The notes under the pieces are model-generated. The model was not told the DNA's origin, did not search any database, and worked only from the letters and a program-made list of their open reading frames with translations. The position numbers were made by a program, and so were the translations under genes. Of a DNA stretch of 28,464 nucleotides, positions 1,856 to 19,362 are shown piece after piece (within the stretch, counting starts at the first letter, position 1; each line of letters begins with the position of its first letter). This stretch comes from Porogramme epimiltina (taxonomy: Eukaryota > Basidiomycota > Agaricomycetes > Polyporales > Polyporaceae): NCBI GenBank assembly GCA_900155495.1, contig FTLJ01000571.1, positions 1-28,464 on the forward strand, in the 5' to 3' direction.

Positions 1856-3213
1856 CTAGTACGGCACCTCGTCAAACAGCTTCGACACGCTCTCTCCATA
1901 GTGACTGCGCCTGATCACCTCGGCTAGCACGTTCCCGATGTCGATGACCTCGATCTTCGCGCACTGCGCGACGTTCTCCGACTGCGGCAGTGTGTTCGTC
2001 ACGATCAGCTTCGCCAGCGCAGACTCCTCGACGTTCTTCAGCGCGTTCCCGCTCAGGATCCCGTGCGTCACCATCGCGTACACCCCCGTCGCGCCCGCCT
2101 CCGCGAGGTGCTTCGCGGCGAGGCAAAGGGTCCCGCACGTGTCCGCCATGTCGTCCACCAGGATGGCGATCTTGTCCTTCACGTGCCCGACTAGCACCAT
2201 CCGTGACACCTCGTTCGCCTTCTTGCGTTCTTTGTGGAAAAGAGCGAAGTCGACCCCTAAGCGATCAGCTATCGAGGTGGCGCTGGTGGGGCGAGCGCAA
2301 TGGAGTCAGTACGTTACGCGCGTAGCACAATGCACCGCCAGCCTTACCGCTTCGCTCCACCGGCGTCCGGGGAGACGATGACGATGTCCGCCAGGCTGAA
2401 ATTGGAGCGGATATACATGATGGCTGAGGGTTCCGCATACAGCTGCGTTTACGGCATGTGTGAGCGTCCAATAAAAACGCAAATAGACCTGGCAGACGTC
2501 ACTTACGCTGTGCGGCGGAGGGAAAGTAAGCTTTCATTTCATCCGCTTATGAGTGGTAAAACACCCACTTGTCTACGGGCACGTCAAAGAAACCCTGTAT
2601 CTGGGAAGCGTGTAGGTCCATGGTCTGTGCGCATGCGGTCCGAAAAAAGTTTGTGCCACAGCCCTCCGTCAGATCGTGCGCGGGAACATGCAAGGACCGG
2701 CGTGCAAACTCACGATGACATGGTCGCACCCAGACTTTTGGAGCATGTTCGCGACAAGCTTTGCAGTGATGGGCGCGCGGCTCTTGTCCTTCTTGTCCTG
2801 GCGGGCGTAGGGGAACAGGGGGAGGATGGCGGTGATGCGCTTCGCGCTCGCGATTTTGCATGCGTGGATCATTATGCAGACCTCCATGAGGGCCGTGTTG
2901 ATCTCCCCGCACGCGGTGTTGATAATGTAGACGTCGTCCTCGCGCACGGACTCGATGATGCGCACTTGGCTCTCCCCGATGCCGTTCTTCGTGACCTCCG
3001 CCCGTCCGAGGGGCACACCGAGCCTGTGACGCAGCTCGGTCAGAAACGAGGCACGTACTCGATGCGCAACGGTAGGGTGTACCGTCTAGTGATAATCTCC
3101 ACGAGCTCGGGATGGCTCGTGCCTTGGAACACGGCGGATGAGGCTGACAGGCAACCATCGATGCCAGAGTGCAACTTACCGGAGAAGATTTTGATCCCGT
3201 TTCCAGTGAACAT
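1856..3213 (-). CDS. Ribose-phosphate pyrophosphokinase (PRPP synthetase), 7 exons including a 1-nt exon
   Basis: Makes PRPP from ribose 5-phosphate and ATP in the cytosol, feeding purine, pyrimidine, NAD, His and Trp synthesis. Exons on the minus strand: 3213-3180, 3122-3083, 3023-2714, 2624-2569, 2507 alone, 2442-2348, 2282-1856. They total 963 nt, or 320 residues, the normal family length. Visible landmarks are the ATP-site loop [15 protein letters not shown] (about residues 95-109), HASQIQGFF (133-141), the signature [10 protein letters not shown] (170-179) and the PRPP loop [11 protein letters not shown] (220-230). The start ATG opens [12 protein letters not shown], which aligns with the family N-terminus. 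Introns are 57, 59, 89, 61, 64 and 65 nt. The fifth exon is one base (C), which completes Asn147 of PVDNLYAEP. It resembles the human PRPS and yeast PRS2/PRS4 type. The family call is secure; paralog identity is not resolved. Confidence 0.95.
2507..2507 (-). other. Single-nucleotide exon in the PRPP synthetase gene
   Basis: On the minus strand the bases around 2507 read CCGCACAG-C-GTAAGTGACG, a strong acceptor, one base, then a consensus donor. The upstream exon ends GTA GAC AA at 2569, before GTGGGT. The downstream exon starts CTG TAT GCG GAA at 2442, after AAACGCAG. Only AA+C+CTG yields the conserved Asn-Leu of PVDNLYAEP in the right frame. The flanking introns are 61 nt (2508-2568, with a GCTTAC branch-like motif) and 64 nt (2443-2506). 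A longer exon reaching back from 2442 is excluded by an in-frame TAA eight to six bases upstream of the CTG. Confidence 0.85.
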
Positions 3214-7531: not shown

Positions 7532-9845
7532 TTATATGGACTGACCAATATGGGAAGCAGGAGGGAACTGGTAGGGAGGGAGAGCACGGGCAGGGCTTGT
7601 CGGAGGCCGTGCGTGGGGCTGCGCGTGAACAGCATACGGCGAGTGGCCAGGAGGGAATGCAGGCGCAGGGCCATTGTTCCACTGTCCGTTCAGTGGCAGC
7701 ATCGCACGCAGCTGATGCTCGTTCATGCTTTGGCGAGGGACCCCCATGACACCCAATGGGGCACCGTGGAATGTGTGGCTAGTCCGAGGGCGACCCATCA
7801 TCAGTCCCTCGGGAACGGGGGGTTGGTACATAGTGTGTTGAGGTAGCGCGCGAGGAACCTGTTGCTGCATGCCGGGAGTGGAAGAATAAATCACCGACTG
7901 CTCAAGGCCAATAGGGCGGGGAGGGATAATTTGTGGGACCGGGAGGGGGGCCGCTTGAAGGGGGGCTGCCATGGGAGAGCGATGAGACATCCGAGAGGCT
8001 GCCCGGTCGGATTCCTGAGCCACGCTTTCCAGAATGGAAATGTAGCGCATCTCCTTAGTAATGTTGCGAGGCTGCGAGAGGTACGGAGAGATGTCGGCGG
8101 TGGCAGTAGAACTACGCCGTGTATGGCTGGGGCTAGCCGGTGGAGGGCGCAAAGAGGGAGGAGCTGTGGGTGGCGCTACCACACTCTGCGCCGGGGTAGG
8201 AACAGGTTGGAGAGACACACGATCGAAGGGCTTTGGAGAGAGCATCGCGGGGGACGACCGGGCCTGGGGGATGTTGACCTGGACTGTGCGCCTGGCAGGC
8301 ACACGGGCCGACCAGTCGGGGCTGACATCAGGAGCGGGATGTTGAGGCACTGGGGGTACCATCGGCACAGACTCGACCGAGACCAACTGAGGCTTCGAGA
8401 TATCCTCAACAGTCAAAGAGGCGGCGGAGCGTTGGAGGCTGCTAAGGAGGTTCGCCAAATGGAGACCTTCTTCCGCGTTGGAGGCCTGCCGTGCAGGATC
8501 TGGCGTGCTCGAATCAATGGACGAATCGAAAGTGGACTGGTGCACGCGGGCGGCGCTGTACTGAGGAGACGGGGTTTGCGGCTCTGCGGACGAAGCTTGA
8601 GAACTAAGCTCTTGTGAGTTACCCACAGACGACTGGTCATTGACTGTCGGGCCATCCTCTTCACTAGATGAATGGGCCTCCTCCTTGACTGTGGGAATAT
8701 GGGACTGGGGCCCCTTTCGGGCCATGTTACGGGGTTTGCGGTCATGAATGAAAGCCTTGAGCGGTCTTGTGACACAATGTAAGACTAGTGGATGCCATTG
8801 AGAGTAGCTAGACTCACCCGATGAACGGCGAAATGAGATAAAACTTGCCAGGCGCGGTTCTGTTGCGCTTCCATGTAGGGAGATCGGGCAATCGGAACCA
8901 AGAGATTTTCTGATTGCGTCTTCAGATCAATGATTTTGGCTGCGGTAGAGAGCCCACTTACGCTGATCTCCTTCCTCGTCTTCGTCTTGAAAGGGAAGTC
9001 TTCCGGGACCCCCGGGACTACGTACAACGATATAGACTGCTCCTTGATAGACAGCTGGATAACATTGTCGGGGTCCAGCTGGCCTTCCAAGTCGTATCCT
9101 GTCTCCTCAAGAACCTAGGGGGGGGTCTAGGTGAGCGATAGAAGTCTAGACTTCGATGGACCTATCGCACCTCCCGGATGGCACATCGGTGCTTCGGTTC
9201 CTGCTCATTAATCTTTCCCTTAGGAAACCCCCACCCTGCCGACGACTTCCAACCCTTTACAAGGACAACCTGCGGTAGGGAACAATGGGTCATTACGTAA
9301 TCGAATAAATGGTTTCCGAAGGTGCGCCACATACCTTATCCCAGGCAGCGTTGAGCATGATTGCACCACATACAGGGACACGGGTTTTATATTTCATGAA
9401 GGAGTCGAATGTGCGGTCGTGGTCTACTGCCCAGTGGGCGAGAAGTGGGCAGGCGCGGAATAGTGCTTCGGAGAAGGTCTTGAGAGTGTACGACGGAAAC
9501 TTGGTGGGGTTCTGTTCCCGGATGAAATCCTCATAGTACCAGTGACTGGATCAACAGAGATCAATAGGTAGGAGACGTATATGGAGGGGAATAACTCACG
9601 CTTGTTCTACCTGGAAGCAAACCCTCTCGACTGATGCGAGTTCCTCTTCCGGGAGGTTCAGAATGAAGCGACTGGTACCATGAGAACCACCTCGAGTGGG
9701 GATTGTGGACGAGTGAGACACACCTAGACAGATCTTCGAGGACTTCGTCTCGACTGAGGTCCGAGTATTGGGCCGACGCAAATTGGTGGGATGATGACGC
9801 TGCGGCAGCGGAGAGCTCAGGGGAGGAGGACGATGATGAAGCCAT
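7532..9845 (-). CDS. DCP2: mRNA decapping enzyme Dcp2, 7 exons
   Basis: Catalytic subunit of the cytoplasmic/P-body decapping complex; it hydrolyses the 5' m7G cap to start 5'-3' mRNA decay. Exons on minus: 9845-9724, 9671-9600, 9545-9335, 9269-9171, 9114-8962, 8909-8818, 8765-7532, giving 660 residues. The introns are 52-65 nt and GT-AG. The N-terminal regulatory domain runs from about residue 30 (EVLEDLSSRFILNLPEEEL) to 130. The Nudix box has the expected spacing: G153, E159, R167, E168, E171, E172 and G174. Box B follows (WFRLPDLPTWKRN, then KFYLISPF). After about residue 265 the tail is Ser/Pro/Gln-rich and disordered; LHLANLLSSL at about 351-360 looks like a helical leucine-rich motif of the type that binds Edc3. 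The ATG at 9845 opens a Ser-rich leader just before the conserved domain. The gene is head-to-head with the TPR-MYND gene. Confidence 0.96.
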
Positions 9846-17975: not shown

Positions 17976-18269
17976 TGACAATGCCAGGATGCTCGGAATA
18001 CGGAATTGTCAATGGCTTCTTGCTCGACCTGTGCTTTAGGGAGTCGCAACTCCGATCGCTGCTACACGTCTCAATCTGGCGCGCTGTGATAGGCTGGTGG
18101 AGCGCAAAGTGGGACGTTATATAGAGTTTGTGCTATAGTTACGTAATCAAATGTAAATGATTCTCTGGACTGAGGCGAGTTGTCTGACCCGCCGTTATTC
18201 CCGGCGCGGCTTGTTGGCGAATGTCGGACGATTTGGTGGCTCGTCTCTCTTGTCTCCTCCCTTTGCTAT
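17976..18269 (+). promoter_or_regulatory. REC8 3' flank and isomerase promoter
   Basis: 294 bases between tandem plus-strand genes. A TATATAG motif lies near 18118-18124, about 150 bases before the first candidate start of the isomerase. A pyrimidine-rich stretch (CTCGTCTCTCTTGTCTCCTCC-like) just before 18270 looks like a transcription start zone. Confidence 0.4.

Positions 18270-19362
<1,093 letters not shown>

Follow-up and report, generated by a model that had tools for sequence, protein, structure and literature searches.

In Arabidopsis APC11, a lone A at position 333 of a 422-nt annotated intron was tested in minigenes as a one-nucleotide exon, and sequential intron definition together with recursive splicing was proposed for its inclusion (PMC4674806). 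One-nucleotide microexons of VPS55 and APC11 have been described across land plants (PMC8831610). In Fusarium, the one-nucleotide exon of CYP621A is a lone G found in one genus, in a P450 of unknown function; it was confirmed by RNA reads, and its authors present it as the second case of its kind and the first from fungi (PMC12940212). Exons "as small as 1 bp" were also noted in Cryptococcus neoformans, in passages that leave the genes unnamed (PMC3990503), and organelle one-nucleotide exons are mentioned in the literature as well. APC11 was named as precedent in the original prediction for the locus described here, and it holds as a precedent but not as the sole known case, since VPS55, CYP621A, and Cryptococcus neoformans have also been published. 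In the literature searched, in which subscription journals are largely missing, no title or abstract among the papers listed named a one-nucleotide exon in a PRPP synthetase gene, and searches on Asn144 of PRPS1, on fungal one-nucleotide microexons, and on PRPP synthetase splicing in Basidiomycota found no papers.

The window analysed here, a stretch of 28,464 nucleotides from Porogramme epimiltina (contig FTLJ01000571.1), carries a gene on the minus strand (3213..1856) whose seven exons, when joined, encode an uninterrupted protein of 320 amino acids. Judged by its sequence, this protein is a PRPP synthetase (ribose-phosphate diphosphokinase). It matched the PRPP synthetase model TIGR01251 over its full length (357.6 bits versus a cut-off of 113), exceeded the cut-offs of PF13793, PF14572, and PF00156, and had chains of human PRPS1 as its best solved-structure match, aligned over residues 6-319 with an E of 1.3e-131 for the top chain. 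In the gene model, exons 1 (3180..3213, 34 nt, beginning with ATG), 2 (3083..3122, 40 nt), 3 (2714..3023, 310 nt), and 4 (2569..2624, 56 nt) precede a lone C at position 2507, exon 5, and are followed by exons 6 (2348..2442, 95 nt) and 7 (1856..2282, 427 nt), all on the minus strand. Exon 4 ends in GAC AA, the lone C provides the third base of the Asn147 codon (AA/C) within PVDNLYAEP, and exon 6 starts with CTG, encoding Leu148. Exon 7 contains the stop codon and the sequence DDMADTCGT, which begins at residue 222 and which we take to be the PRPP-loop motif. A paralogue on contig C94 of the same genome (L010, G000:C94:7200-9300) reads PVDNLYSEP without a break at the Asn site and has one TGA elsewhere in the matched stretch; additional partial PRPP synthetase matches were seen on contigs C159 and C777. 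Elsewhere in the window, an open reading frame at 18642-19007 (+) contains a NUDIX domain, and together with that at 18180-18554 it resembles, we presume, isopentenyl-diphosphate isomerase.

C2507 is bounded by an acceptor AG and a donor GT in CACAG-C-GTAAGT (2512..2501, minus strand), the only AG-N-GT in the 126-nt stretch between exons 4 and 6. Intron 4 (2508..2568, minus strand, 61 nt, GTGGGT...CTTAC...GCACAG) and intron 5 (2443..2506, minus strand, 64 nt, GTAAGT...CTCAC...ACGCAG) each possess a GT, a branch-like CTNAY, and an AG, with the branch-like A 19 nt and 18 nt from the intron end, respectively; a second CTNAY lies further upstream in intron 4. The six introns of the gene measure 57, 59, 89, 61, 64, and 65 nt, so that introns 4 and 5 are not unusual in length for this gene and a fused 126-nt intron would be its longest. 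The splice signals on both sides of the lone C, the lengths of the two introns, and the exon sum of 963 nt (320 amino acids plus stop) are as originally predicted. YAGNGTRAGT occurs twice in the window versus 0.66 copies expected, and at least two copies were reached in 15 of 100 shuffles; not being rare by itself, this motif was rejected as stand-alone evidence. Among 200,000 Markov-simulated 126-mers, a pyrimidine between YAG and GTRAGT, placed such that both introns were at least 45 nt long, was found in 0.031%, and the looser AG-Y-GT was found in 9%. By eye, the second CAGCGTAAGT copy in the window (8956-8965, minus strand) appears to be the regular end of an exon, GAGATCAGC/GTAAGT, within a gene that resembles the mRNA decapping enzyme DCP2.

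Alternative splice structures were enumerated within set coordinate ranges, requiring the same protein and allowing a middle exon of 0-7 nt. Identical protein was encoded by 95 structures, only one of which, 2569 / 2507 / 2442, is built solely of GT-AG, GC-AG, or AT-AC introns. No canonical-intron solution other than the one-nucleotide exon was found for the PRPP synthetase protein, and the Asn-supplying base C2507 is needed for both the frame and the conserved protein. Six single introns of the GT-AG, GC-AG, or AT-AC type, starting at 2609, 2593, 2582, 2576, 2564, and 2550, keep the frame and were rejected because each alters the protein; the altered products include PVDKWLYA (donor GTGTTT) and DVPLYA (donor GTAGAC). 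Obtaining PVDKLYA from this window requires an intron with TG-AG or GT-CA ends, or worse.

A homology search yielded 7,993 matches, the best 120 of which, comprising 62 named genome-derived models and 58 jgi/lgn contigs, were examined; the nearest protein among the matches listed was 93% identical. For 57 of the 58 jgi/lgn entries the longest contig was below 2 kb (P0048, 6.3 kb), and the protein was encoded without interruption. Size and uninterrupted frame suggest that these contigs are transcripts. Among the 120 matches listed, 56 of 62 genome-derived models, including some that share a species, departed at the residue 147 junction versus 1 of 58 transcript-size contigs (Fisher p 4e-26). 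Around the other four junctions, departures were restricted to 0-2 of the 62 models and 0-1 of the 58 contigs listed, which argues against generally bad annotation. The most variable position outside the intron sites was residue 95, which departed in 11 of the 62 models and in 2 of the 58 contigs and where the differences represent, as far as can be told, ordinary variation. In the 62 models listed, the junction was read as PVDKLYA (24), DKWLYA (12), DKYLYA (5), VPLYA (4), DNVSDLYA (2), or one of nine other departing forms, and three of the rival structures that can be built here (KW, VP, and Lys) occur as annotated models of relatives. The remaining six listed models (P0026, P0027, P0043, P0044, P0079, and P0080) have the normal Asn; in these, the exon may have been annotated, an intron may have been lost, or the model may be transcript-based. 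Asn was present in 57 of the 58 listed transcript-size contigs and Ser in one. This contig, P0056, reads PVDSLYA and shows two more differences from Laccaria P0044; its Ser is either a sequencing error or a real variant. A control search, which was aimed at Lys-type models beyond Polyporales and returned mainly animal sequences, along with other fungal and unnamed ones, showed Asn in all 120 homologues listed.

Some of the departing models appear to retain a trace of the lone base. The Tricholomella (P0099) and Lyophyllum (P0110) models read PVDNVSDLYA, and that of Phanerochaete sordida (P0065) reads NVSA, in DNVSAPSFHLLYA. When the lone C of this window is read on into intron 5, NVSDVCQ results, the NVSD of which is the same as in P0099 and P0110. 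Such NVS-type models would result if GTNAGY came directly after an Asn codon, i.e., if a pyrimidine preceded the donor. The protein models suggest that the lone base is probably present in the genomes of relatives as well.

Close pairs of a transcript-size contig and a named model permit a direct comparison. Outside the junction, no differences in 320 residues were found between P0031 and the Postia placenta model P0036, between P0116 and Pleurotus ostreatus P0291, and between P0053 and Leucocoprinus leucothites P0104; P0004 and Fomes fomentarius P0016, as well as P0054 and Macrolepiota fuliginosa P0075, showed 1 difference in 320. At the junction, the models P0036, P0291, P0104, P0016, and P0075 have K, K, RGYYS, KW, and NLYYS forms, respectively, and all five paired contigs read PVDNLYAEP. 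The remaining close pairs, three with Laccaria bicolor P0044 and one with Wallemia ichthyophaga P0288, involve named models that have Asn. It is the frame, the conserved Asn, the unique solution, and the relatives that make the case for the exon, the motif itself being weak. We are highly confident that this PRPP synthetase gene is intact and that its mRNA includes C2507 as a constitutive one-nucleotide exon completing the Asn147 codon. The central claim of the original prediction, that the lone C joins AA at 2569 to CTG at 2442, is borne out by the sole canonical structure found and by the Asn in the contigs of relatives; we infer that C2507 is spliced in this way in Porogramme epimiltina itself.

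A further search used a query with Lys at the site and, being biased to such models, was left out of the frequencies. Of the 120 proteins it listed, 60 were new, 39 unnamed and 21 named. All 39 unnamed proteins have Asn, and at least one of them, P0266, matches Wallemia. Among the 21 named ones, 18 have Lys and 3 have Asn (two from Wallemia, which belongs to another subphylum, and one labelled Adiantum). The Lys error form was found in seven further orders, represented by Sphaerobolus (Geastrales, Phallomycetidae), Serendipita (Sebacinales), one species of Auriculariales, Rickenella (Hymenochaetales), Gloeophyllum (Gloeophyllales), Peniophora (Russulales), and, from the first homology search, Jaapia (Jaapiales). 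This distribution, in a sampling that leaves out Cantharellales, Dacrymycetes, and Tremellomycetes, suggests that the exon is as old as the Agaricomycetes and originated at or before the base of the class. The Gloeophyllum trabeum model P0244 has a second odd stretch, VYIITSPSPSITPSATSVNTALMELC, which probably reflects another mis-spliced junction, and a similar stretch is present in P0295. The latter is labelled Adiantum nelumboides, a fern, but looks like a basidiomycete PRPP synthetase, possibly owing to fungal contamination of the fern assembly.

The layout of the locus allows a splicing mechanism to be proposed. Each of the two small introns, being short and complete, would be recognised across itself. 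The inner splice sites, AG and GT, are one base apart, so their simultaneous use should be impossible and the two introns would be removed one after the other; Guo and Liu reasoned in the same way on the inner splice sites of APC11 (PMC4674806). The upstream intron would usually be the first to be removed, because no AG comes before CACAG downstream of CTTAC and because removal of this intron leaves AAC/GTAAGT, a strong donor. For a 9-nt potato exon the reverse order of removal was reported, as cited by the same study (PMC4674806). Either order would lead to the same mRNA, with the expected cDNA junction GACAACCTGTATG.

It is tempting to speculate that the exon, besides being real, serves as a regulated switch, in which skipping or intron retention would direct the mRNA to decay and so tune PRPP synthesis. 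The original prediction already considered such control of nucleotide synthesis. This would be an addition to the constitutive exon and is compatible with it. Skipping of C2507 leads to a stop after 182 residues, ahead of the motif starting at residue 222, as foreseen by the original prediction, and retention of intron 4 or intron 5 leads to a stop after 153 or 205 residues, respectively, so mis-splicing would be unproductive. However, most frame-breaking mis-splicing gives early stops too, and no regulated skipping was seen among the proteins listed, which, being open reading frames, would probably not reveal skipped forms. We regard such a switch as unlikely. A broader scenario is likewise unlikely as a whole. 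Under it, the exon had a single origin that predates the radiation of the Agaricomycetes and was retained in most of them because it has to be spliced in two obligatory steps, which would determine how much PRPP synthetase is made; failed splicing steps would produce dead-end messages only, and the splicing of a single base would thereby gate the PRPP supply.

Explanations that dispense with the exon fared far worse. A single intron of 122 nt, starting at 2564 with GTGTTT as a weak donor, is GT-AG, keeps the frame, and would produce PVDKWLYAEP, a form read by 12 of the 62 listed genome-derived models, with the DKY form in 5 more. However, it adds a residue and abolishes the Asn shared by all 120 control homologues listed, its product is read by none of the 58 listed transcript-size contigs, and the contig matching the Fomes model but for 1 difference elsewhere reads PVDNLYAEP. 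We consider this intron very improbable. Even less credit is due to a single non-canonical intron with TG-AG or GT-CA ends, yielding PVDKLYAEP. Such an intron has the right length, and PVDKL is found in 24 of the 62 listed genome-derived models and in 18 of the 21 new named ones from the Lys-biased search, yet the contigs that elsewhere equal the Lys models of Postia and Pleurotus read Asn, and a Lys pattern is what alignment of a cDNA that ignores the one-nucleotide exon should produce. The original prediction had allowed that a single intron with a non-canonical site might overturn it; when 150 single introns of suitable length were tried, whatever their terminal dinucleotides, none encoded the identical protein. 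It had also allowed for an assembly error. Loss of one C ahead of the donor, leaving a single ordinary 126-nt intron, would likewise have its frame restored by one base, but the same phase problem affects 56 of the 62 listed genome-derived models, and neither CACAG-C-GTAAGT nor the presence of a branch-like site in each of the two halves (61 and 64 nt) would be explained; we judge this, too, very improbable. At a recursive splice site with a zero-length exon, the acceptor AG directly abuts the donor GT and no base is kept. This arrangement is ruled out by the one needed C between AG and GT, as is a [D1,2] stwintron by the two intact donors, GTGGGT and GTAAGT.

With C2507 as a constitutive exon, an exon of the minimum possible size appears to be included constitutively in a core enzyme throughout a fungal class. 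One-nucleotide exons were already known, and that of PRPP synthetase is a new, apparently widely conserved, and misannotated case. In 56 of the 62 listed genome-derived models, a wrong residue, an insertion, or a deletion in a conserved motif is, by this reading, due to the exon. Because it is sampled so widely, the locus lends itself as a natural test for the handling of splice sites one base apart by the spliceosome, and annotation software could readily be benchmarked on it. Should the 1-bp remark on Cryptococcus neoformans (PMC3990503) apply generally, basidiomycete genomes may conceal further exons of this kind.

Among the described systems, the C. neoformans genes resemble this locus in being basidiomycete and having very small exons, which there were annotated on the basis of RNA-seq (PMC3990503). 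Like [D1,2] stwintrons, it comprises two short introns that would be removed successively under intron definition; however, the internal intron of a stwintron interrupts the external donor after G1, ahead of its second base (PMC12403724), whereas both introns are complete here and one coding base lies between them. With APC11 it shares a constitutive one-base exon that completes the frame of a core gene and was overlooked by annotation, but it is fungal rather than from a plant and has two introns of about 60 nt (PMC4674806). Similarities to the VPS55 and APC11 microexons of land plants include apparently deep conservation, absence from reference annotations, and, for VPS55, the GTRAGT donor; the genes and the kingdom differ, and for VPS55 isoforms with and without the microexon are described in some plants (PMC8831610). 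Like the exon of CYP621A, the PRPP synthetase exon is fungal, lies within a conserved motif between exons that are out of phase, and is wrongly annotated, and its apparent breadth exceeds the single fungal genus of that report (PMC12940212).
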